Of a stretch of 64,000 bases of DNA, positions 22,432 through 44,154 are shown piece by piece. The DNA is from Haloglycomyces albus DSM 45210. GTDB lineage: Bacteria > Actinomycetota > Actinomycetes > Mycobacteriales > Micromonosporaceae. The notes below the pieces were generated by a model, which worked only from the letters and a program-made list of their open reading frames with translations, did no database searches and was not told the origin of the DNA. The translations under genes were made by a program, and so were the position numbers. The stretch's first letter is position 1, and each line of letters begins with the position of its first letter. The stretch is taken from assembly GCF_000527155.1 (NCBI RefSeq), contig NZ_AZUQ01000001.1:1048554-1112553 (forward strand). The letters run 5' to 3'.

Positions 22432-22507
22432 GGGGCTATGGCGCAGTTGGTAGCGCGCTTCCATGGCATGGAAGAGGTCAGGAGTTCGAATCTCCTTAGC
22501 TCCACCA
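22432..22507 (+). tRNA. tRNA-Ala(GGC)
   Basis: Full cloverleaf: acceptor GGGGCTA (22432-22438) pairs with TAGCTCC (22497-22503). The D stem is GCGC/GCGC, the anticodon stem CTTCC/GGAAG closes loop ATGGCAT (anticodon GGC), and the T arm is AGGAG-TTCGAAT-CTCCT. The acceptor has the G3:U70 pair that identifies alanine tRNAs. CCA is encoded (22505-22507). Its 3' part is the integration site of the adjacent mobile element. Confidence 0.97.
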
Positions 22508-22528
22508 GCAGAAACGGGCCTCGGGAGT
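22463..22528 (+). repeat. attL core (66 bp, identical to attR)
   Basis: Identical to 27565-27630; starts in the anticodon loop of tRNA-Ala and ends in the terminator stem. The bases just outside differ (C at 22462, A at 27564), which sets the boundary. Confidence 0.93.
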
Positions 22529-22550
22529 GACTCCCGAGGCCCGTTTGTTA
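22512..22550 (+). terminator. tRNA-Ala terminator, inside attL
   Basis: AAACGGGCCTCGGGAGT (22512-22528), one base, then the perfect complement (22530-22546) and GTTTGTT-like T-rich sequence. The same palindrome is repeated at 27614-27648 in attR. Confidence 0.85.
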
Positions 22551-22573
22551 CTCAATTTGTTACTCAATTCAGT

Positions 22574-23761
22574 CTAGAAATCCTGGTCAATAACCTTATC
22601 GAGCACCTCAGCTCCGGACGTGATCACGGGCCGGATTTGATGCCGGTAGATCGTTCTTGTCGTACTGGTTCGCTTGTGTCCAACAAGGTCAGCGATGAGT
22701 TCCTCCCGCGCCCCCTCATCCGAAAGCAGAGAGACAAAGGTATGCCGGAATTCACGTGGAGTCCAGTGGCCCCGAATCCCCGCTTCCTTAATCACTTTGC
22801 GGAGGTCCCGCCGTACATTCGCAGCATCACGAATGCTTCCAACTCTCGTCGAGAACACGTAATCGTCACCAGACAGCACAACACCTGAGCTTTCCCTCTC
22901 AAGTTCTGCGCGCACCTTGTGAGCAGTAAGAATCACGACGACCTGTTGAGGTAGTGCGATCGTCCGGCGGCTCTTCGGAGTCTTGGTTTCAGCCTTGTTC
23001 CTCACTGAACGCCAAACCTCTACATGCGGTGCTGATGTCTCACGATGGGCCGTTCCGCATGAACATTCTTGTTCCGCAACGGGATTCAGATGAACATGCT
23101 TCCACTGGAGCGGTCGAGCTTCCTCTGTTCGAACACCCGTGAAGACGGAGAGAGCAATGTAGGCATGAATCCATGAACCGCGACTTGCCTCAAGGCACTT
23201 CTTAGCTTCTTCTCGAGTCATTGATTTGCTGGGACGACCGGCTTTACCGTCAGGAGAATCTACCAGCATTGCAACATTACGACTGGCCTTCCCACGTGCT
23301 TCAGCGAAACGAAGGATGCGCCGCAGCATACTCAGCAAAAGCCTAAGAGTCGAGGTAGCGTGATCCTGAGCCAGGACTTCGAGCCATTCATCAACCTGCT
23401 CAGCCCTAAGTTCCTTGACCTTAGCAGCTCCGAGCAGTGGAATTATGTTAGCTTTCGCCAGGCTTTCGTACTTATCACGAGTCGTTTTCCCCTGCCGCTT
23501 AAGGCCATACCGTAGCCAATCCAGCGTCGCCTGCCGAATGGAGTACTGCTTCCCCGGCTCAATAGCGGCGTTGTACTCGTCCTTGATCTTTCTGAACTCC
23601 CGACGAACCTCCGCACGAGAGGCCCCCTCAGCCACACGAACATCACGTCGACCATCAGGACGAAAACCAAAAGACAAGCGACCCACAAACTTGCTCCGAC
23701 GTGTATCCCAAAAGATCGTTCCTTCACCGTACCGGTTCTTCTTTCGGCCTTCATTACTCAT
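22574..23761 (-). CDS. int: Tyrosine recombinase integrase (pSAM2 Int-like)
   Basis: Catalyses site-specific integration at tRNA-Ala. The 395-aa protein has an N-terminal arm-binding and core-binding region (about 60-170; TTRDKYESLAKANIIPLLG) and a catalytic domain. FTGVRTEEARPL carries the first Arg, TPREFRHTFVSLLSD the His/Arg box in the variant form of actinobacterial elements, and RTSTTRTIYRHQI the tyrosine. It lies 27 bases inside attL reading away from the tRNA, as usual. The ATG at 23761 overlaps the stop of the replication gene by 4 bases, so int is coupled to it. Confidence 0.95.
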   Translation of the reverse strand: MSNEGRKKNRYGEGTIFWDTRRSKFVGRLSFGFRPDGRRDVRVAEGASRAEVRREFRKIKDEYNAAIEPGKQYSIRQATLDWLRYGLKRQGKTTRDKYESLAKANIIPLLGAAKVKELRAEQVDEWLEVLAQDHATSTLRLLLSMLRRILRFAEARGKASRNVAMLVDSPDGKAGRPSKSMTREEAKKCLEASRGSWIHAYIALSVFTGVRTEEARPLQWKHVHLNPVAEQECSCGTAHRETSAPHVEVWRSVRNKAETKTPKSRRTIALPQQVVVILTAHKVRAELERESSGVVLSGDDYVFSTRVGSIRDAANVRRDLRKVIKEAGIRGHWTPREFRHTFVSLLSDEGAREELIADLVGHKRTSTTRTIYRHQIRPVITSGAEVLDKVIDQDF

Positions 23762-25131
23762 GAGTGGTGATCACCTGTGGTTTGTTTGTCGTGTTTGGAG
23801 AGTCGTTTGTGGAGTTGTTGTTCAGCGATAGCGGCGGCGTACTCGCGTTCGGCGTCATTGTCGTGACCGAAACCCACAGGGTGCCAATCGTTGACGATCG
23901 TGACGTCGTGCTCATCGACATCGAGTTCGGCCAGTAGTTCGTCCAACCGCCAGCGGGCGCGGATGTCGCGCAGTTGCCCGAACGTGAGGCTCCAGGCGCG
24001 GGATTTGGTGAGGAAATGTCCACGGAAACCCAGCATGTGTGCCCACCGGCGGAGGTTGAGACGCTCATACTGCACCAGTCCCCCAAGCCGCCAGGCCATC
24101 TCGATCATGCGCCGGTAGTGATCGGCGACCGCTACCATCTCCAAATCAAGGTGGGATTTAATGCGCCGGTCGGCCCCATCGGTGACCCCGGTGGATTTGG
24201 TGGCGTACTTGGCGATATAGCCCGCCAAAGCCTGATCCGACAGGCCTTCCTTCGCCTTCGCTTCGGTGGTGATGTCGCGCAGATCCACCTGGGTGCCCCA
24301 TTCCAACACCAGCGTCTCACCGTTCGGACGGGCCGCCTCCACACGTGTATCGGTGACGGCCCGACGGATTGCCGTCTCCAAGGTGTCTTTGGTGGCCCAT
24401 GTCGGTGGAGTCGAGCCCGGCCCGTCGGGGCCGTCGAGTCGGATGGCGGCGTGGAAATGCACCAGTCCCCGACGCTGGAACTCCGCCACCTTCGCATACG
24501 ACAGCCGTACCTTCTCGGGTAGATCTTTAACCCGCAACCCGGCCAGACCCGCTAGGGTTCGTTTCAAGCGCCGGGTGAACTGATGCCACAACTCGCCCGC
24601 ATGAGCGTGCCACAACACAGCGGCTTCGTAATCATAGTCGCCGGCGTCGACGGCGTGACCCAAACGCGGATCGGCTTGGGAATGCCAAGAGCCACAAGAA
24701 CAGGGGCGGTAGAGCTTACCGCGAGCGTTGACCGACCGTGAATGGACGGGGCCGAATGACGGCGCCGTGAGCGTGACGAACCACCGTGGGCACTCCGCCA
24801 CCCCCGAATCCACCCCTTTGGAGGCGTCACCGGCCAGACCGGAACGGATCAAATGGTAGGCGTCTTGTGCGTACCAGGCCGAGCAGGTCTCACACATCGA
24901 CTCGCGGCGGGTTCCGCACGGCACCCACACCGAACCGGACGTGTCTTTCACAACGGTGCCGGTGGCGTTGTCGGTGACGGTCGAGCCGCCACGCAGTTTC
25001 ACTGGATGAGCACACCCGTGCGAGGATTTCACCTTCTCTTTCCAGGCCTTGAAGCCCGGGCGGGTGATCAGTGCGCGTAGCGGATCGACGTCATCGTTAG
25101 TGTCGGCGACAGTAACGCTGCCCGAGTTCAC
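23758..25131 (-). CDS. repSA: Replication initiator protein (RepSA-type, rolling circle)
   Basis: A 457-aa initiator of the actinobacterial plasmid/AICE type. PRWFVTLTAPSFGPVH is the first conserved block, RRGLVHFHAAIRLDG carries the H-x-H metal-binding pair of HUH nucleases, and GYIAKYATKSTG contains the Tyr/Lys region. Four Cys-rich spots near the N-terminus (CGTRRESMCETC, CSCGS) may bind zinc. It is expected to nick the element's origin and replicate the excised circle. The gene overlaps its neighbours on both sides by 4 bases, so the three genes form one transcript. Confidence 0.9.
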   Translation of the reverse strand: MNSGSVTVADTNDDVDPLRALITRPGFKAWKEKVKSSHGCAHPVKLRGGSTVTDNATGTVVKDTSGSVWVPCGTRRESMCETCSAWYAQDAYHLIRSGLAGDASKGVDSGVAECPRWFVTLTAPSFGPVHSRSVNARGKLYRPCSCGSWHSQADPRLGHAVDAGDYDYEAAVLWHAHAGELWHQFTRRLKRTLAGLAGLRVKDLPEKVRLSYAKVAEFQRRGLVHFHAAIRLDGPDGPGSTPPTWATKDTLETAIRRAVTDTRVEAARPNGETLVLEWGTQVDLRDITTEAKAKEGLSDQALAGYIAKYATKSTGVTDGADRRIKSHLDLEMVAVADHYRRMIEMAWRLGGLVQYERLNLRRWAHMLGFRGHFLTKSRAWSLTFGQLRDIRARWRLDELLAELDVDEHDVTIVNDWHPVGFGHDNDAEREYAAAIAEQQLHKRLSKHDKQTTGDHHS

Positions 25132-34164: not shown

Positions 34165-35178
34165 TCACCGATGATGTTCCAGGCGGCGATGCGCTCCTTC
34201 CACGTCCGGATCGGTGTGCACCGTCGCGCGTTCCAAATGCCCGATCGAGTGCAGCAGCTCGTGTTCGGCTTCCACCGCGATATCGTGGGCCTCGGTCACC
34301 TGCAATTCCGGACTGACAATGACCTCAACTTCCGCATACAGGCGATGTCCCACCCATCGCATTCGAACCGAGCCCACCGCGCGGACCCCGTTCAGTTCCG
34401 CCAGCGCCGTCTCTGCCTGCGATATCAAGGCAGGATCCACCGCATCCATCATCCGTCGGTAGATCTCCACCGCCGCGTCCTTCAGAATGAAGAGAATCGC
34501 CAACGCGATCGCCAGTCCGATCACCGGATCGACCCAGTCCCAGCCGACAGCCAGACCGATCGCCCCGACGACCACGGCCAGCGAGGTGTAGCCGTCGGCC
34601 CGCGCGTGCAGACCGTCGGCCACCAGCGCGGCCGAGCCGATCCGGCGGCCCACTCGCATCCGGTAGCGCGCGACCGCTTCATTGCCGATAAACCCGATCA
34701 CCCCGGCGGCGGCGACCGCCCACAGCAGCGATACGTCATCAGGGTGCCGCAGCCGGTTGATGGCCGCGTACCCGGCCGCAAACGCCGAGGCGGCGATGAA
34801 ACAGACGATGACGATTCCCGCCAAGTCCTCGGCACGCCCGTATCCGTAGTTGAAGCGGCGATTGGCCGCTTTCCTGCCCAGCAGGAAAGCGATTCCCAGC
34901 GGTACGGCCGTCAGCGCGTCGGCGACATTGTGGAGAGTGTCGCTCAGCAGGGCGATCGACCCGGTCACCACAAACACCGCCGCTTGCGCGAGCGCGGTGA
35001 TTCCCAGCAGGCCCAGCGATATCCACAGCGCTCGTAGTCCTTCGCGGCTGCCTTCGAGGGCGGAGTCGGTCTTGTCGGCGGAGTCGTGTCCGTGGGGTAT
35101 GAGCACGTGTGTGACGCGGTGCCAGAGACCGGTGGTTTTACCGTGGTCGTGGTGATGGTCGTGGGAGTGGTCTGTCAT
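34165..35178 (-). CDS. Cation diffusion facilitator (zinc/cobalt-type exporter)
   Basis: A 337-aa CDF antiporter exporting Zn2+, Co2+ or related ions. The His-rich N-terminus is DHSHDHHHDHG. Six membrane helices carry the metal site: SDTLHNVADAL in helix 2 and ADGLHARADGY in helix 5 give the HxxxD pairs. A cytoplasmic domain (about 255-330) ends with EHELLHSIGHLERATVHTDP. The start is the ATG at 35178, with AAGGA nine bases before. A perfect palindrome, GGTTAATC-C-GATTAACC, lies about 104 bases upstream and may bind a metal-responsive repressor. Confidence 0.93.
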   Translation of the reverse strand: MTDHSHDHHHDHGKTTGLWHRVTHVLIPHGHDSADKTDSALEGSREGLRALWISLGLLGITALAQAAVFVVTGSIALLSDTLHNVADALTAVPLGIAFLLGRKAANRRFNYGYGRAEDLAGIVIVCFIAASAFAAGYAAINRLRHPDDVSLLWAVAAAGVIGFIGNEAVARYRMRVGRRIGSAALVADGLHARADGYTSLAVVVGAIGLAVGWDWVDPVIGLAIALAILFILKDAAVEIYRRMMDAVDPALISQAETALAELNGVRAVGSVRMRWVGHRLYAEVEVIVSPELQVTEAHDIAVEAEHELLHSIGHLERATVHTDPDVEGAHRRLEHHR

Positions 35179-35281
35179 GAGCGACATTCCTTCGGTGGTT
35201 GGAGTGTGGGGTGCCGTCGCACTCGATCTTCGGGAACGCAAGCGTCAATGAGTAGGTTTCACACTCCCCATTGTAAGCCTT

Positions 35282-35416: not shown

Positions 35417-36253
35417 TTAGACCCAACGGGCCTTTCGCGCGGCTCGTCGGAACACTCGCAGCAATACCGTACCGGTCGCCACGATGAGAAGAGCGGTCGT
35501 GATGGCCCGGCCGATGTCCCATCCCAAGGACGTCGCCAGAGAGAACACGACGAGATTGCGCAGGTTGTCGCCCATTCCGGCGGCGGGGTCGTAGGCGAGC
35601 GCACCCGTGGTGACGGTGAACGGCCAGAACGACAGGTTGAGCAGTAGCCCGAAGACCAGGGAGGTGACCGCGGCGTAGACGGCGAGGAGGGCGATCTCTC
35701 CGATCCGTCCGCCGCGGGTTGTGGGCCCGGGTTGGCTGCTGTCGCGGCGTGCTCCGGGCAGTAGTCCGGCGCCGAGTCCGATGAAGGCGGCGGCGAACAT
35801 TTGGTACGGCAGCCAGGGGCCGATTCCGCCGGTCAAAAACGCGGAGGTGAGTAGTCCGGTAGTGCCGAGGAGGAATCCGAAAGCGGGTCCGAAGACGCGT
35901 CCGGCCAGGATGATGAGGAAGAAGACCGTTTCCACTCCCCCGGCTCCGGCTCCGAACGGCCGGATGGCGGCGACGGCCGCCGAGAGGACTCCCAGCATGG
36001 CGATGGCGCGGGGGTCCAGTCCGCCGCTGGTGATTTGGGTGAGGGCGACGGCCAGCACGAACGGCAGCATGAGGGCGAATATCCAGGGTGCGGCGTTGTT
36101 TTCGGTGACCGATGAGCCGGGTTGGGCGAACAGTGGCCACGTGGTGGCGGCCAGTCCGAACACCGCCGCGAGCGCGAGTGTGAGGGCGGGGACGCGGCTG
36201 ACGGTCGCGGCTGCGGGGGTGTGTTGTGATCGTAGGGCCGGGGTGTCACTCAT
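35417..36253 (-). CDS. ECF transporter substrate-specific (S) component
   Basis: A 278-aa hydrophobic protein with about seven helices: LTLALAAVFGLAATTWPLF, PFVLAVALTQI, GVETVFFLIILAGRVFGPAFGF, PYQMFAAAFIGLGAG and a conserved Trp-Pro-Phe late loop (LSFWPFTVTTGA). This is the substrate-binding unit of an energy-coupling-factor importer. It is the last gene of the operon, overlapping the ATPase gene by 8 bases. A corrinoid substrate is inferred from the transcobalamin-like lead genes; cobalt or another vitamin is possible. Confidence 0.82.
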   Translation of the reverse strand: MSDTPALRSQHTPAAATVSRVPALTLALAAVFGLAATTWPLFAQPGSSVTENNAAPWIFALMLPFVLAVALTQITSGGLDPRAIAMLGVLSAAVAAIRPFGAGAGGVETVFFLIILAGRVFGPAFGFLLGTTGLLTSAFLTGGIGPWLPYQMFAAAFIGLGAGLLPGARRDSSQPGPTTRGGRIGEIALLAVYAAVTSLVFGLLLNLSFWPFTVTTGALAYDPAAGMGDNLRNLVVFSLATSLGWDIGRAITTALLIVATGTVLLRVFRRAARKARWV

Positions 36254-37850
36254 CGAGTGTCGCCTTGACTTCGTCGACGGTCATCCAGCCGGGGAGGACT
36301 TTGGCGACTTGTGGGGCGAACATGGGTGAGGCCGAGATCATGTCGCGGGCTTCTCCGGTGGCGACGACCTCTCCGTCGGACAGGAGGACCACGTCGGTGG
36401 CGTATTCGGCGATGAATTCGACGTCGTGGCTGGCCAGCAGCACGGCTCCGCCCGCTGCGGTGTGTTCGTGGAGGAAGTCGGCGAGGATTTGTTTGGCGGG
36501 GTAGTCGAGTCCGCGGGTGGGTTCGTCGAGCAGAAGGAGGGGCGGGGCGGCAGTGAGGGTGACGGCGAGCGCGAGAGCGAGCTTTTGCCCTTCGGAGAGG
36601 TCGCGGGGGTTGGTGTGGTCGGGCGGGGTGTCGCCGCGCAGGACGGTGCGGAAGATTTTGGCGCAGCTGCCCTTGACCGCCTGGGTGTCATGGTCGGCGG
36701 ATCGGCATTCGGCGGCGACGGTGTCGTGGTAGAGGAGGTCGGTAGGTTCGGAGGGGATGAGTCCGACGAGGTCACGGCGTTTGTTTGGTTTGAGTCGGGT
36801 GGGGTCGGTGCCGTTGATCGTGACGGTGCCGGCGGCGCGTTTGCGGGTTCCCTGTATCGCCCACAGTAGGCTGCTTTTGCCGGAGCCGTTGCGCCCGGTG
36901 AGGGCGATGCTTTGGCCGCGTTGCACGGTGAGGCCGACGTCGGTCACGGCCGGGAGCGTGCCGTAGGTGACGCTGAGGCGGTCGATGGAGGCCAGGACGG
37001 TTCCGTCGGGGGTGGTGGGTTCGTGCGGGAGGCGACCGGCGAGCGCTCGGGTGAGGGGACCGCTGAGGCGGCGGGTGTCGCGCACGGTCACGGGGACGGT
37101 GTCGTCGGGTTTGCGCAGGCCCGCTGTTTCGGCGAGTTTGACGACGGGTGGGGCGATGTCGGTGCCGGTGAGGGTGTCGGAGAGGCTTCCGGCTTGGATT
37201 CGTCCGTTGTGGAGGCGTAGCCCGGAGTCGGCGTATTGGATGACTCGTTCGAGGCGGTGTTCGGAGATGACGGTGGTGATGCCGAGGTCGTGGACGAGTC
37301 GGTGGAGGATGGACAGTACTTCGTCGGCTCCGGCGGGGTCGAGGGCGCTGGTGGGTTCGTCGAGGATGAGGACACTGGGTCCGGCGACGAGTGCCGCGCC
37401 GATGGCGACGCGTTGGCGCTGTCCGGCCGACAGGGTGGACAGTACGCGGCCGCGCAGCGGCGCTAGCCCGGTGAGGTCGATGATTTCGGTGAGGCGTTTA
37501 CGGATGGCGTGGGCGGGAATGGCGAGCTGTTCGGCGGTGTAGACGAGTTCGTCGACGACGTCGTCGGTAACGAATCCGGCGAGCGGGTCTTGGTTGACGT
37601 AGCCGATGTGGTCGGCGGCCTGCGCGGGGGTGGTGTGGCGGACGTCGAGGCCTTTAACGGTGATCGAACCGGCGAGGGTGCCGCCGCTGAACTGGGGAAC
37701 GAGGCCGTTCATGGTACGCAGCAATGTGGTCTTGCCTGATCCGGTGGCTCCGGTGAGTAGGCAGAATTCCCCTTCGGGGACGGTGAAGGTGGCGTGTTCG
37801 AATACGGGTTCGGTGCCGTATTGGAAGGTGACGTCTTGGTATTCGATCAC
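36246..37850 (-). CDS. ECF transporter fused double ATPase (EcfA-EcfA')
   Basis: 534 aa with two ABC domains in one chain. Domain 1 has Walker A GATGSGKTT, signature LSAGQRQRVAIG and Walker B VLILDEPTSALDP. Domain 2 has GRNGSGKSSL, LSEGQKLALALA and LLLLDEPTRGLD. It drives import through the T component. The start is the GTG at 37850, overlapping the upstream stop as GTGA; the frame runs open 100 codons further, but that part is a shadow of the permease gene. Fusion of both ATPases is common in actinobacterial ECF systems. Confidence 0.95.
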   Translation of the reverse strand: MIEYQDVTFQYGTEPVFEHATFTVPEGEFCLLTGATGSGKTTLLRTMNGLVPQFSGGTLAGSITVKGLDVRHTTPAQAADHIGYVNQDPLAGFVTDDVVDELVYTAEQLAIPAHAIRKRLTEIIDLTGLAPLRGRVLSTLSAGQRQRVAIGAALVAGPSVLILDEPTSALDPAGADEVLSILHRLVHDLGITTVISEHRLERVIQYADSGLRLHNGRIQAGSLSDTLTGTDIAPPVVKLAETAGLRKPDDTVPVTVRDTRRLSGPLTRALAGRLPHEPTTPDGTVLASIDRLSVTYGTLPAVTDVGLTVQRGQSIALTGRNGSGKSSLLWAIQGTRKRAAGTVTINGTDPTRLKPNKRRDLVGLIPSEPTDLLYHDTVAAECRSADHDTQAVKGSCAKIFRTVLRGDTPPDHTNPRDLSEGQKLALALAVTLTAAPPLLLLDEPTRGLDYPAKQILADFLHEHTAAGGAVLLASHDVEFIAEYATDVVLLSDGEVVATGEARDMISASPMFAPQVAKVLPGWMTVDEVKATLDE

Positions 37851-38944
37851 GGTTGGCCCTTCACGGTCGCGTGCTTGGGGACGATGACGGCCGGCGCGAT
37901 GGCCGACAGTACGCCGATGAACCCGAGAAGCGGCAAAGGTGGCGGTGTGAGTCCCGGGGTCGGCCACAATTGTGCGGGATCGACCGCGTTGTTGACCACT
38001 GCCAGGATGACCGTCACCGCGGCGATGCCGAGAATGAGACGGTCGCTCGTTTGGGGTTTGTCGTCGCGGTAGCGGGTGTGGCGCAGGCGGCGGGAGGCGT
38101 AGCGGAGGGCCGCGATGGCCCCGGCGAGCCCGAGTGCGAGGAACACCCACGTGATGGGGTTGTTGGTGGACGTCAGCAGCCCGTAGGTTCCAATCAGCAG
38201 TGCGACGAGGGCGACGAGGCTGAGGACGGCGACGCGGCGATGATTGGCGGCGTCGCTGGCCGTGGCGCGACCGTAGCCTCGGGACGCCATGGATGCGGCC
38301 AGCTGTAGCGACCGGTCGAGCGCGTCGGTCAGCACCGGGGTGAGGACGGTGCGCATGAAGGTGACCGGCCCGCGTTTGGAGTTGCCGCGTAGGGATTTGG
38401 CCCGCCGGATACGCGACACCGACGCGGCAAGCTGGGGTACGAGGGTAAGCCCGACGACGATCGCCAAAGCGATCTCGTACAGCGCGGTGGGCATGTTTTT
38501 CAGCAGGCGACGAGGGCTGGCGAGAGAGTTGGCCGCTCCCACACAGATCAACAGGGTCGCCAGGCGGAGTCCGTCATAGAAAGCGGCCAAGGCCCCCTCA
38601 GCCGTGATGGGGCCGCCAATGGAGAACCCGGTCGACCCCAGGCTCCACTCCGGCAGTTCGAACAAGACGGTCGTTCCACCGACACCGCCGAAGACGAGAT
38701 AAAAAGTGAAACGGATGGCGATGACCGTCAATCCGATGTAGAGAAAAATTCGCCAGGTACCCGACCACGGTTCATTACCACGGCACGTCGTCACCACCAG
38801 CGCGGTCACGGCAATGATCAGCAGATTCAGCCAGGGATTGTGGTTCAGAGCGGCCACGGTCGCCAAACTGAGCGCCCAACCCCACCACGCCAACGGGTGC
38901 GCCGCGGCGGCAATCGAGCCGACCAACGCCTTACTCGTCGTCAC
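37847..38944 (-). CDS. ECF transporter transmembrane (T) component
   Basis: 365 aa, CbiQ/EcfT family. The two cytoplasmic coupling helices carry the Arg-Ala/Arg-Gly motifs (RIRRAKSLRG around residue 185; MASRGYGRA around 225) that contact the ATPases. Three more hydrophobic helices after residue ~240 extend the usual fold. It overlaps the upstream gene by 14 bases and the ATPase gene by 4. Confidence 0.93.
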   Translation of the reverse strand: MTTSKALVGSIAAAAHPLAWWGWALSLATVAALNHNPWLNLLIIAVTALVVTTCRGNEPWSGTWRIFLYIGLTVIAIRFTFYLVFGGVGGTTVLFELPEWSLGSTGFSIGGPITAEGALAAFYDGLRLATLLICVGAANSLASPRRLLKNMPTALYEIALAIVVGLTLVPQLAASVSRIRRAKSLRGNSKRGPVTFMRTVLTPVLTDALDRSLQLAASMASRGYGRATASDAANHRRVAVLSLVALVALLIGTYGLLTSTNNPITWVFLALGLAGAIAALRYASRRLRHTRYRDDKPQTSDRLILGIAAVTVILAVVNNAVDPAQLWPTPGLTPPPLPLLGFIGVLSAIAPAVIVPKHATVKGQP

Positions 38945-39551
38945 GACGTTTCTTCACCGCCAAGGTGAGCAGAATCAACGCGATGACCAGCATTGGAGCA
39001 ACCAACCACCAGTATTTCCCGTTCTCGTCCTCATCGTCGGCACCACTGTTCGACGCGGTATCGTCAGACGCCGATTCGTCCGCGCTCGCAGTGGACGGAG
39101 CATCGCTCGGCTCATCGCCCGCGCCAAAGGCCCACCCCTGTGCGCTACCCGCCTCGGGCTCCACGACCGTCGGTCCGGCGGGCGAATAATCCCAGGCCGA
39201 ATCCCCGGGGTCGGCCGTCCAATACGACCAGTAATCTTCCGGAGGCGGTGCTTGCGAACACGACGTATCGGGTAGTGCATTAATGCGGCACACCATTCCC
39301 GGCTGACTCGACACCTCGGTAACGGTGAAACCGGCCTGACGCAACGCGTCGAGACCGTCGGAGGGATCGGCGGCGCAACCGCGCTCGCTGTCGCCGTCGG
39401 GAAATTCGACGACGACGGTGACGCCGTCGCAGGTTTCGTCTTCTTGAGCGACGGCAGGCTGTGCCGGGCTCGTCAATGCTGCCGTCGTGCCGATGAGCAC
39501 CGGAACCACGAACACCGGACCGATGAGTGTGGCGAGTGCTTTCTTGAGCAT
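38931..39551 (-). CDS. Surface protein with transcobalamin-like C-terminal (DUF4430/SCO2322-type) domain
   Basis: 206 aa: signal peptide (1-35, ending AVA), then one domain (about 40-140). TVVVEFPDGDSE, GLDALRQAGF, VCRINALPD, PPPEDYWSYWTA and GSAQGWAF are the pattern of PF14478, the beta domain of transcobalamin and intrinsic factor. The Ser/Asp-rich stalk (about 145-175) and a C-terminal helix (WLVAPMLVIALILLTLAV) with KKRRDDE anchor it in the membrane. In Streptomyces the SCO2322 family occurs in the same context. It probably presents the substrate to the ECF transporter encoded downstream. Confidence 0.85.
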   Translation of the reverse strand: MLKKALATLIGPVFVVPVLIGTTAALTSPAQPAVAQEDETCDGVTVVVEFPDGDSERGCAADPSDGLDALRQAGFTVTEVSSQPGMVCRINALPDTSCSQAPPPEDYWSYWTADPGDSAWDYSPAGPTVVEPEAGSAQGWAFGAGDEPSDAPSTASADESASDDTASNSGADDEDENGKYWWLVAPMLVIALILLTLAVKKRRDDE

Positions 39552-39731
39552 TCTGTTCCCCTAACCTGTCGGTGACGTGTTTTGCGGTGCGGGTTCGGGC
39601 TCCACCGGGAGCCGGTGGCGGCGGTTGACCGGGACACCCGGGACGGATCGAGCGAGACGGATCGGTTCCGGGAAACGGCCGGAGCACATCGTGCCCCGGC
39701 CGTTTATATTGCATTCGTAGTGGTCAGCGAC
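39552..39731 (-). other. Operon-internal spacer with hairpin
   Basis: 180 bases between the two surface-protein genes. AAACGGCCGG (39673-39682) and CCGGCCGTTT (39696-39705) form a perfect 10-base stem with a 13-base loop, 27 bases after the upstream stop. It may attenuate or end part of the transcripts. I looked for a cobalamin riboswitch here and above 40914 and could not recognise one. Confidence 0.5.
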
Positions 39732-40913
39732 CTATTCGCTGCCTTTGGCACGCTTGGCACGGATGACCAAGAACGCGGCCATCGCGGCGATGACCACGGC
39801 CACGGCCACGATGATCCAGGGCAGCCAACCATTGTCGGAGTCGGACGAAGAGTCGGAGTCGCTGACGGCCTCTTCCGGCTCGCAGTCGATTCCTGGCACG
39901 TCAGACGCGGCGTCGGAGGCGTCCAACTCGGCCAAGTTCTGCCCGGCCAGCGGAACCAACGCCTGACCGGTCGCCATGATCCGAGCGTCTTCACCCCAGT
40001 CGGGGTCTTCCTCAGCTTGGAACTTAATAGCGCCCTGCGCGTCGTCTCCACAGGGGATCTGCAAGGTCAGCAGGTAAGAGACCGCTCGCTCGGCCTCTTC
40101 GGCATTGCCGGTCGCCAGCAGCGCCTGAGCGGCCATCGCGGTGGAGTTGGCGTTCGCGGTGGATCCGTCGGTGAACGCACCGTCTTCGTCTTGGTTGTCG
40201 AGCAGCCACTGCTCGGCGTCGGTCAAAGCGTTCTCGGCGTCGTCGCCTCCCAGTACCGACAGCGCCGACACCATCACGCCCGTGTAGTCGGCCGACGAGG
40301 CGCATTCCTCACCGGACTCCCAGCTGAATCCACCGTCGGGACATTGCAGATCGGCGATCGCCGCAGCGGTGGAATCGTCCAGCTCGGCACCGGCGCGATC
40401 CAAACCGAGCACCGCCCAGCCGGTGGCCAGCACATCTCCGCTTTCTCCGTACAGCCCGTCGTCGGTGAGGCTTTCTTCCAGTTCCTCGGTGAGGTCGCGT
40501 TCGGCGAACTGGGTGGCGTCGCCGCCCGAGGTCTCGATGACGTAGATGAGCTTACCGATCTGACCGGTCTTGAGTTCTTCGTCTTCGCCGGATTCGGCTC
40601 CGGTGTAGATGAAGCCGTCGAGAACGTCCGGATCGCTCAGCCAATTAAGGGTGTTTTCGGCCTGCTCAGCACCGACGTTCGCGGCCAGCAGGCCGATCAC
40701 GCCATCCAGCGAAGCCGATTCCGAGGCTTGGCCGCCGTAATTCCAGTAGTCACCGTCGGACTGGTTTCCCAGCCAGGAAGCGGCCGCCTGGTCCGGATCG
40801 GCGAACACTTCGTCTTCCGCGACGGCCGCCGTGGTCGGCAGGAGCGCGGCGACGGGGGCAAGCATGGCCGCCACCGCAAGGGCACGTTTGCCGTTACGTC
40901 GGTTCTTTAGCAT
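39732..40913 (-). CDS. Surface-anchored alpha/alpha-barrel (prenyltransferase/squalene-oxidase repeat) protein, transcobalamin alpha-domain-like
   Basis: 393 aa: signal peptide (1-32), then repeated helical pairs with Gly/Trp turns. YWNYGGQASESASLDGVIGLL, DDGLYGESGDVLATGWAVLGL, CPDGGFSWESGEECASSADYT (continuing TGVMVSALSVLGG) and DGAFTDGSTANANSTAMAAQALLATG form an alpha6/alpha6 toroid. A Ser/Asp stalk and C-terminal helix (WLPWIIVAVAVVIAAMAAFLV) follow. The same toroid forms the large domain of intrinsic factor and transcobalamin. It leads the operon with the PF14478-type protein next, so the two may form a split corrinoid-binding pair. No catalytic DxDD motif of cyclases is seen. Very acidic. 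Confidence 0.82.
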   Translation of the reverse strand: MLKNRRNGKRALAVAAMLAPVAALLPTTAAVAEDEVFADPDQAAASWLGNQSDGDYWNYGGQASESASLDGVIGLLAANVGAEQAENTLNWLSDPDVLDGFIYTGAESGEDEELKTGQIGKLIYVIETSGGDATQFAERDLTEELEESLTDDGLYGESGDVLATGWAVLGLDRAGAELDDSTAAAIADLQCPDGGFSWESGEECASSADYTGVMVSALSVLGGDDAENALTDAEQWLLDNQDEDGAFTDGSTANANSTAMAAQALLATGNAEEAERAVSYLLTLQIPCGDDAQGAIKFQAEEDPDWGEDARIMATGQALVPLAGQNLAELDASDAASDVPGIDCEPEEAVSDSDSSSDSDNGWLPWIIVAVAVVIAAMAAFLVIRAKRAKGSE

Positions 40914-41136
40914 GATGTCGTAGGCACCTTTCTTTCCAGATCCATAATGAGCCTACCTGAGACCGCCTGCGAGGACGCACCATCAATCCGTTTCCTCCAC
41001 CACGTACCAAGGCGCCCGCACCATCGCGATTCGACATGTTTCGGCAGTTCACGCGAGTGGTGAGCCGAGCTGTGCACAAGAAGACCACCGGCAGGGACGG
41101 TGACGACGGATCTCCGGTCGGTCACGTCAACGCACC

Positions 41137-41166
41137 TTGACCCCTAGTGCCGTCGGTCGATACCGT
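41137..41166 (+). promoter_or_regulatory. Leaderless promoter of the tetR-type gene
   Basis: TTGACC (41137-41142), an 18-base spacer, TACCGT (41161-41166). The ATG begins six bases later, where transcription should start. Confidence 0.6.
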
Positions 41167-41172
41167 TCAAAC

Positions 41173-41778
41173 ATGAAGCACACAAACGTAATCAAACCGC
41201 GCAACCCTGACGAGTGGCGCATTTTGACCGCTGCGAGCAAGACGTTTTTGGAAAAGGGCTTCACCGCCACCACTATGACCGACCTGGTGGCCGCCACCGG
41301 GTTGAACCGCGCCACCCTCTATTCCGGCTACGGTTCCAAGCACCAGATCTACATCATGTCCATGGAGTTCCTGCGCACCGAAATGCGTTCCGAGTGGGAA
41401 TCCGTGCTGACACTGGAGCCGAGCCCCACTCGGCGACTGTCCAGCATTCTGACCGCTCTCATCGACACCGCTCCGCACCTCACCGACGGCGACTTCTACA
41501 CTCGCGCCGCGCTCGAATTGGGCGACGACCCCGCGACGGCGCAACGCATCATCGAGTTCTGGCAACAACTCCACACTGACGTCAGCGAACTGTGCAAACG
41601 CGCTCAGGTGAGTGGCCAGCTCGCCGAACACGCCGACCCCGACTCCATAGCGGCCATGGTCGTATCGCTCATCCAGGGCGTCTACGTCAACCGCAGCATT
41701 GACGCCGCCCAACAGCTCAACCTGGACAGCAAGCCCGGCAGTGCCTCCCGAGGCCTGGTCGAGCTGCTCGAATCCTGA
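41173..41778 (+). CDS. TetR/AcrR family transcriptional regulator
   Basis: 201 aa. The N-terminal HTH is ILTAASKTFLEKGFTATTMTD, then LNRATLYSGYGSKHQIY (helix 3 with the typical TLYxxFGSK block). The C-terminal ligand domain includes LIDTAPHLTDGDFYTRAALE and MVVSLIQGVYVN. The start is the ATG at 41173; no Shine-Dalgarno is present, and the promoter places the first transcribed base at the ATG. It is divergent from the ECF operon (about 260 bases apart) and could control it. Its 3' end overlaps the convergent gene by 97 bases. Confidence 0.9.
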   Translation: MKHTNVIKPRNPDEWRILTAASKTFLEKGFTATTMTDLVAATGLNRATLYSGYGSKHQIYIMSMEFLRTEMRSEWESVLTLEPSPTRRLSSILTALIDTAPHLTDGDFYTRAALELGDDPATAQRIIEFWQQLHTDVSELCKRAQVSGQLAEHADPDSIAAMVVSLIQGVYVNRSIDAAQQLNLDSKPGSASRGLVELLES

Positions 41779-42851: not shown

Positions 42852-44154
42852 GGGTGCGTTGGTAAATTAGTGGTCCATGTGGGGTTGAGTGTGGTTGGTG
42901 GCGTTCATCGTGGGTAGATAGTGTAGTTCCAGTCTGGATGGAATTGGTGCCGTTCCATAGGGGTGTTTTCGAGGTCCTTGTCGCTGACTTTGATACCGGT
43001 CTGGTAATCAGTGTCATCGAGGTAGGACTCGACTTGGAGTCCTGTTTCGGTGGTGGTGCCGGCGATCAGGTCGAGGATGACTTGGTAGGAGGTCAATGGG
43101 CGGCCTCTGAACTGTCTACTAATGAAAGCAAATAGTCGATGTTCGATACGATTTCATTTGCTGGTGCCGGGTGGGTAGTGGCAGACGGTCACGGTGATAT
43201 CAGTCTGTGCGGCGAAGGCGGCCAGTTCGGCTTTCCAGAGTCGACGGTTGTATCCGTTTGAGCCACCAGCATCGGCGGTGATCAGCAGCCGGTCGACGGG
43301 TCCATATCGATCTCGTCCATGGTGGAGCCACCAGTGGCGCAGTGCGTTGACGGCGAATTGGGACGTCTCTGCAGTCATCCCGACCGTCACCCATCCTTCG
43401 TTGTCACCAACGTCGTAGACCCCGTAGGGGATGGCTTTGTCTACCCCTGCAGGGAAATCGTGGACATTAACATCGACCGGGTGGCCCTGTCGTTGCCATT
43501 CGACGCCTTTCTGAGCGTAGTTGCCGACCAGTTCCTTCTTTTTCGCATCGACGCTCACGACCGGATCGTCGTCACTCAAGTACTGACGGGCTAGATGGTT
43601 GATATAGCGAAATTGAGCGTCACGGTCGGGGTGTTGATCACCTTCTCTCGTTTTGACCACTCGTTGTAGGCGGAATCCGCACTCGGCCAGCAACTTACGA
43701 ACGGTCGTCTTGCTGGAACGAAACCCTTTCTGCCGCAGTGCGGTGACCAGACCAGCGAGGCTCTTTGTCGTCCAGCGCAGTGGGTTGACCGGATCCCCAC
43801 GCGATTGCTCATCAGCCAACTGTTCCAACGCGGATGTGATTCCCGGTTGCTCATCTTCAATCGAGGGGCGTCCCGCACCGGGAGCACGGATACGGTCCCC
43901 ACGGTCACACTCGACATTGAGATCGGCGATCCCGTGACGAACCGTGCGACGATGCGCACCAACCGCCCGAGCGACCACTGAAATACCTCCGCGCCCCAAC
44001 GACTGGGCCAGCGAACCCAACGTCATTCGCCACTGTTTCTCGTTCAAATGCGGTTTAAGCGGCTCCAACATGACCGAGATAGCGTCTTCATCCATACCTT
44101 ACTAACGACCATCACAACCACCCAGAAACGAACCACTAATTCACCAACAAACCC
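42852..44154 (-). mobile_element. ISAzo13-type insertion sequence, 1303 bp
   Basis: Inverted repeats of 23 bases, 42852-42874 and 44132-44154, match at 20 positions (GGGTGCGTTGG.AAATTAGTGGT plan). TAA flanks both ends (42849-42851, 44155-44157), a 3-base target duplication. It contains one transposase gene on the minus strand, interrupted by a TGA. Confidence 0.9.
42905..44095 (-). pseudogene. ISAzo13-family transposase with premature TGA
   Basis: The frame starts at the ATG 44095 and reads 313 codons to a TGA at 43154-43156 (PPGTSK*). The same frame then continues NRIEHRLFAFISRQF and on to 42905 (ending DWNYTIYPR). The family reads GTSKWNxIEHR, so the TGA replaces the Trp codon by one base change. 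The catalytic Glu lies after the stop, so the truncated product should be inactive. Other family marks are VSVDAKKKELVGNY (first Asp region) and LLITADAGGSNGYNRRLWK (second Asp). Confidence 0.9.

Follow-up and report, generated by a model that had tools for sequence, protein, structure and literature searches.

The DNA analysed here, referred to as the window, was a 64,000-nucleotide stretch of Haloglycomyces albus DSM 45210 (NZ_AZUQ01000001.1), and the feature studied was a five-gene operon on its minus strand at 35417-40913. The operon very probably encodes a capture and import system for a corrinoid, be it vitamin B12 or a closely related compound such as cobinamide. We infer that two membrane-tethered surface proteins would bind the corrinoid outside the membrane, like the two domains that transcobalamin carries in one chain; the pair would hand it to the S component of an energy-coupling factor (ECF) transporter, and the S component, EcfT and a fused EcfAA' would import it at the cost of ATP. 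Because the host appears to synthesize B12 as well, the role would be corrinoid salvage. What computation established was the five genes, their conservation as an operon, the predicted folds and the riboswitch linkage in relatives. The original prediction had proposed corrinoid capture and uptake, and this was supported by the predicted fold of the beta domain, by frames in relatives that join toroid and beta domain, and by a cobalamin riboswitch at 66 of 81 testable loci. The features were as follows.

39732..40913, minus strand: toroid surface protein, 393 amino acids, with a signal-like N-terminus, an alpha/alpha toroid at about 34-345, an acidic linker and a C-terminal helix at 365-391
38931..39551, minus strand: beta-domain surface protein, 206 amino acids, with a signal-like N-terminus, a predicted transcobalamin-type beta-grasp at about 40-146, an acidic linker and a C-terminal helix at 181-205
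37847..38944, minus strand: EcfT, CbiQ-type transmembrane subunit (CbiQ PF02361, E 1.7e-10)
36246..37850, minus strand: fused EcfAA' ATPase with two ABC cassettes, for which ECF-type models scored best (Pfam, NCBIfam)
35417..36253, minus strand: ECF S component, the substrate-specific subunit (PF07155 E 6.3e-4, below cut-off)
40914..41172, minus strand: leader that separates the toroid and TetR genes, without a cobalamin riboswitch
41173..41778, plus strand: divergent TetR-type regulator (family match), which adjoins the operon in relatives too

All five minus-strand genes of the original prediction were recovered at the same coordinates, in the order toroid, beta domain, EcfT, EcfAA' and S. 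A 180-base gap separated the toroid gene from the beta-domain gene, and genes 2-5 overlapped. The EcfAA' start was likely GTG 37850, placed there because of its GTGA overlap with the EcfT stop. The identities first given to EcfT and to the fused EcfAA' agreed with the CbiQ match and with the two cassettes, and for the S component the window's own match was below cut-off while 42 of 47 aligned members (the window included) matched ECF_trnsprt PF12822 at E≤1. EcfT, an ECF ATPase and an S component encoded together constitute an ECF transporter with its own module (group I type). Both surface proteins had the expected hydrophobic N-terminal stretch, acidic low-confidence linker and C-terminal helix.

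Scanning genome contigs with the S component yielded 124 relatives. The best 80 loci were retained, and 20 loci were added from genomes of the window's family, in which the S component was present in 27 of 61 sampled genomes. Among the best 80 of the 124 were Glycomyces, Actinokineospora, Knoellia, Janibacter, other Actinomycetota and many Chloroflexota assemblies. Gene content was counted in 97 distinct loci, with L118, L119 and L123 excluded (L numbers denote loci). All five genes were present in 64 of the 97, and contig ends cut some of the others. The commonest order was toroid, beta domain, T, A, S (42 loci), followed by toroid, beta domain, S, T, A (13 loci). Since the gene set was found again in two phyla, it is a real operon and not a chance arrangement. 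All 15 Glycomyces-group loci, and L117 as well, had a divergent TetR gene beside the operon. A second toroid/beta-domain pair adjoined the operon in L026/L123, L125, L127, L128, L129, L130 and L135, several of them on the opposite strand, and the second pair of L128 had its own cobalamin riboswitch.

The AlphaFold2 model of the beta-domain protein had a predicted local distance difference test score (pLDDT) of about 90 or more across most of residues 41-140. Foldseek ranked haptocorrin first (E 0.068) and intrinsic factor ninth, and VIA-align 2 was run on the Foldseek candidates. The Z scores were 10.0 for haptocorrin, 9.8 for 3u7z (which we take to be DUF4430-like), 9.7 for the apo transcobalamin beta domain, and 9.4 and 9.0 for intrinsic factor; the next-best folds were an RNF subunit (Z 6.1) and a sulfur carrier (Z 6.0). 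These top matches covered residues 40-146, with 89-94 residues aligned at about 15% identity. The predicted model therefore had the transcobalamin-type beta-grasp fold of the SLBB clade, with Z 9.0-10.0 against 6.1 for the next fold. By residue positions in the model, strands 77-80 and 83-90 came after helix 66-72; in the SLBB clade a beta-hairpin insert follows the helix. The alignment of the window protein with 59 relatives (n=60) had C88, C98, W108 and W120 invariant. SCO2322_fam (NCBIfam) matched the window protein at E 1.1e-7, below its curated cut-off, and 54 of the 60 proteins at E≤0.01; among 296 genomes sampled across the phylum, 54 had a match to the beta-domain profile, 8 of the 54 only through a short C-terminal match.

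Where a locus had both a toroid and a beta-domain gene, the two were neighbours in the great majority of cases, and in 6 of the 97 loci the two domains lay in one stop-to-stop open frame. We lean slightly towards the view that the tethered toroid and beta-grasp proteins form a two-chain transcobalamin, which would clamp the corrinoid and feed the S component directly. It is rather unlikely that corrinoid uptake is right and the surface proteins are unpaired, acting singly or as receptor and scaffold with no transcobalamin sandwich. Such independence would suit the window, where the proteins are separate and each has its own tether, and a toroid that by fold score is not specifically transcobalamin-like; it would also suit the order in the fused frames, where the beta domain came first in L047, L052, L053, L080 and L131, the reverse of the animal order, and the toroid came first, as in animals, in L079 only. 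The adjacency and the six fusions argue against it, as does the statement, in the part of PMC1796856 consulted, that cooperative B12 binding is probable for bacterial fusions, whichever domain comes first. By hydropathy, 43 of 86 toroid frames and 74 of 101 beta-domain frames had a membrane-helix-like segment on the C-terminal side, and contig ends cut some of these frames; the double membrane anchor of the window is, on these predicted segments, common and not universal. If the clamp is real, an ECF transporter would have a capture stage at the cell surface, formed by a clade outside PF14478 that occurs in two bacterial phyla and has fused forms in both orders.

Riboswitches were searched with RF00174 in the genomes behind all 80 loci (47 + 33), and matches were assigned to loci by coordinates; a covariance model, R1, was built from 14 close relatives and run over 99 loci and the window. 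A locus was scored positive when the match was on the same strand and between 700 bases upstream of the first domain and 200 bases inside it, and testable when it had at least 300 bases upstream, which left out 16 loci. The 99 loci gave 83 testable and 68 positive ones, and removal of the repeats L118 (= L007) and L119 (= L011) gave the 66 of 81 distinct testable loci with a cobalamin riboswitch directly upstream. Placed matches were dropped if they had the wrong strand, fell within a gene or lay at a distance from the start of the operon (L022, L033, L043, L044, L045, L050 and L054), as were extra placed matches in L001, L030, L068 and L079; two placed matches inside the S gene of L059 were probably misplaced, and this locus was counted negative. 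In L078, which was not counted, the riboswitch sat between the beta-domain gene and the S gene. Genomes with matches held only 1 to 11 RF00174 elements, so chance placement near the operons is negligible.

Direct RF00174 scans, in which L078 was included, confirmed the placed match in all 9 loci scanned, each time above the gathering score. A direct scan of four close relatives found the riboswitch in all four, two just below the gathering score, and four R1-scanned loci rechecked with Rfam were likewise all positive, with L117 at 30.5 bits, just below that score. The riboswitch was present in 16 of 16 loci that share the TetR neighbour, with R1 scores of 97-164 bits, 14 of the 16 matching R1 by construction because R1 was built from them; by RF00174 the same loci scored 25.4-34.1 bits, 11 of the 16 below the gathering score of 31.5. 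Immediately downstream of the aptamer the leaders had a strictly conserved TGTCGTGGTCTACAGGC-type stem motif (L001 3220-3310, and the corresponding position in other Glycomyces leaders), which is perhaps part of the expression platform.

Points that weigh against the corrinoid reading came from the sequence comparisons, the riboswitch searches and the host genome. For the beta domain, Foldseek alone gave nothing at E≤0.001, and a profile search of solved structures gave two matches at E≤10, with no transcobalamin chain. The window protein had no Pfam match, and PF14478 (DUF4430) had no match in the host genome. The PF14478-type label first given to this protein failed as a sequence membership, because 0 of 60 aligned members matched at E≤1, and stood as a description of the predicted fold.

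For the toroid, class II terpene cyclases scored higher by fold (Z 24-25) than transcobalamin, intrinsic factor and haptocorrin (about 21), and the profile search of solved structures gave 59 matches at E≤0.01 with no transcobalamin chain among them. That the first surface protein is an alpha/alpha toroid was borne out by a confident structure model (mean pLDDT 88.9) and by family matches: it was of the prenyltransferase type by Pfam and NCBIfam, and SCO2321_fam (NCBIfam) matched the window toroid at E 1e-17, below its curated cut-off, and 41 of 49 toroids at E≤0.01. The original prediction had further held that animal B12 carriers consist of exactly these two domains; the beta-domain fold agreed with this, while the toroid taken alone fitted terpene cyclases somewhat better. 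A toroid that is a terpene-cyclase-like enzyme, in an operon of lipid metabolism, would account for drimenyl diphosphate synthase and squalene-hopene cyclase being its best matches by both fold and sequence. The catalytic motif of class II terpene cyclases is DxDD; it was found in 1 of 49 toroids and, read by eye, was missing from the window toroid. An enzyme of this kind would explain neither the beta domain nor the riboswitch nor the secretion, and we regard it as extremely improbable. By its predicted structure the toroid is compatible with a B12 carrier and not diagnostic alone.

The S component also gave results that do not favour corrinoids. Its weak family matches were of riboflavin and folate type, and the profile search of solved structures returned weak folate-type S components and one unrelated chain, with no match to CbrT. 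The riboswitch does not single out a corrinoid as the substrate, because cobalamin riboswitches also control cobalt importers; the operon could on this ground import cobalt or a small B12 precursor, not a whole corrinoid. The same genome has a cobalamin riboswitch before CbtBA-like cobalt importer genes (by eye), and EcfT matches the CbiQ family, which is named for cobalt transport. The S component is, however, not CbiM, as PF01891 was matched by 4 of 47 members with a best E of 1.9e-4, and a transcobalamin-type beta domain with a toroid would be of no evident use to a cobalt importer. Import of cobalt or a precursor was thus judged improbable.

By the positional rule, a nearby riboswitch was absent in 15 of the 81 testable loci. 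Eight of these 15 had neither surface gene adjoining (L033, L037, L038, L043, L045, L059, L064 and L126). A direct scan placed a riboswitch farther upstream in L038 and L053; in L127, L129 and L134 one lay next to a divergent toroid gene, on the opposite strand, and in L072, L131 and L133 no riboswitch was found by the rule. The window itself had no cobalamin riboswitch by Rfam at a permissive threshold, and R1 run on it with filters off scored at most 5.0 bits, inside the TetR gene. The covariance-model search thus confirmed the absence that had first been noticed by reading. It had been taken to weaken the corrinoid case, a worry that the relatives answer: since those with the same TetR neighbour all carry the riboswitch, the absence looks like local loss and not like evidence against corrinoids, and loss in this lineage is the simplest reading of the sequences.

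A decayed riboswitch remnant in the window leader was looked for and is not claimed, as the leader's local alignment was not above that of shuffled leaders; 31 of 300 shuffled leaders reached the alignment score for L117, and 77 to 137 of 300 for six other relatives. The window leader had one short patch in common with relatives. A terminator-like stem was observed at 41084-41104 on the operon strand of this leader, in a region where such sites numbered 6, close to the shuffled mean of 4.2. That the TetR regulator controls the operon in place of the riboswitch is speculation.

The 3.54-Mb host genome had two RF00174 matches over cut-off, both outside the window. The one before the CbtBA-like genes was on the same strand as these and next to a cob cluster. 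In this cluster cobT, cbiE and cbiT domains, cbiD, cobM, cobI, cobB and a cobJ domain were over cut-offs, and cobC/cobU-like, cbiX-like, cobH-like and cbiG-like matches were below; cobS and a further GATase_3 protein were also found in the genome. Apparent B12 synthesis genes, which the original prediction had proposed to look for, were present as a cob cluster and cobS. The other riboswitch immediately preceded genes for a substrate-binding lipoprotein and a FecCD-like permease (by eye; L149 1850-4173, host genome C1 from 66849). These probably form a second corrinoid importer, and no ATPase gene was seen next to them. Three B12-binding domains were present, one of them in a 1187-residue open frame that is MetH-like by size. 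The gene content suggests a host that probably synthesizes B12, uses it and possesses another importer for it, and the ECF system is for this reason best seen as one for salvage. Bacteria with such surface proteins usually lack key B12 genes according to the part of PMC1796856 consulted; the apparent B12 synthesis of the host departs from that pattern and weighs somewhat against a pure scavenger reading.

The principle of surface B12 capture with a CbiO/CbiQ transporter had already been proposed in 2007. In the sections consulted, Burroughs et al. (2007, PMC1796856) describe SLBB surface proteins of transcobalamin type that accompany CbiO/CbiQ transporters, chiefly in low-GC Gram-positive bacteria, and predict that they serve B12 scavenging; they also state that the two domains of transcobalamin sandwich B12. 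As in those systems, the window has a predicted surface transcobalamin-type beta-grasp, a toroid as partner or fusion, and CbiO/CbiQ (ECF) genes nearby. Unlike them, as far as those sections describe them, its family lies outside PF14478 (0/60), is mostly of two chains, is linked to riboswitches and has a host that appears to make B12; it also occurs in Actinomycetota and Chloroflexota, which are not named for this clade in the same sections. The predicted folds of the beta domain (Z 9.0-10.0) and of the toroid (Z about 21) resemble animal transcobalamin, haptocorrin and intrinsic factor, whereas the animal carriers are one soluble chain and the window has two membrane-tethered proteins, with about 15% identity and no sequence-profile match. 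The animal order of toroid then beta domain in one chain was not seen in the window, and among the 97 loci only in L079.

An ECF transporter for B12 exists in ECF-CbrT of Lactobacillus delbrueckii, which follows the ATP-driven ECF scheme in the part of PMC5997447 consulted. The window system is like it in ECF architecture and, by inference, in substrate. It differs in that CbrT, as described there, shares its ECF module with other S components, while T, AA' and S are encoded together in the window, along with two surface proteins. No sequence relation between the window S component and CbrT was detected, which is not proof of its absence. The literature search found no paper on such an actinobacterial or chloroflexotal system. 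Rodionov et al. 2009 reportedly may treat some of the ECF genes as CbrTUV, and for this reason the transporter part may already have been predicted. As far as the search shows, the new elements are a clade outside the family profile, in phyla not named for it in the sections consulted and mostly of two chains, and the direct regulatory linkage to cobalamin, together with a lineage without the switch.

Around the operon, the downstream CDF cation-efflux gene (34165-35241) was considered as part of the system and rejected, having no relative at E≤1e-8 in the relatives' loci compared. An open reading frame (ORF) like an insertion sequence transposase, named by eye, lay at 43154-44095, about 1.4 kb beyond the TetR gene. 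At 22432-25131 a tRNA-Ala was followed by an integrase-like ORF (22574-23761) and a RepSA-type replication-initiator-like ORF (23758-25131), both assigned by eye, and this region looks like an integrative element in tRNA-Ala.

Descriptions of ECF transporters do not usually include external binding proteins. If the corrinoid reading is true, a conserved pair resembling the animal B12 carriers would be the capture stage for an ECF transporter, and the split form would allow its two halves to be tested separately. The window copy without a riboswitch and its riboswitch-bearing relatives offer a natural contrast for regulation. SCO2321 and SCO2322, families that are named and whose NCBIfam descriptions (SCO2321_fam and SCO2322_fam) give no function, would gain one, and there would be a wider bacterial pool as a possible source of the animal carrier.

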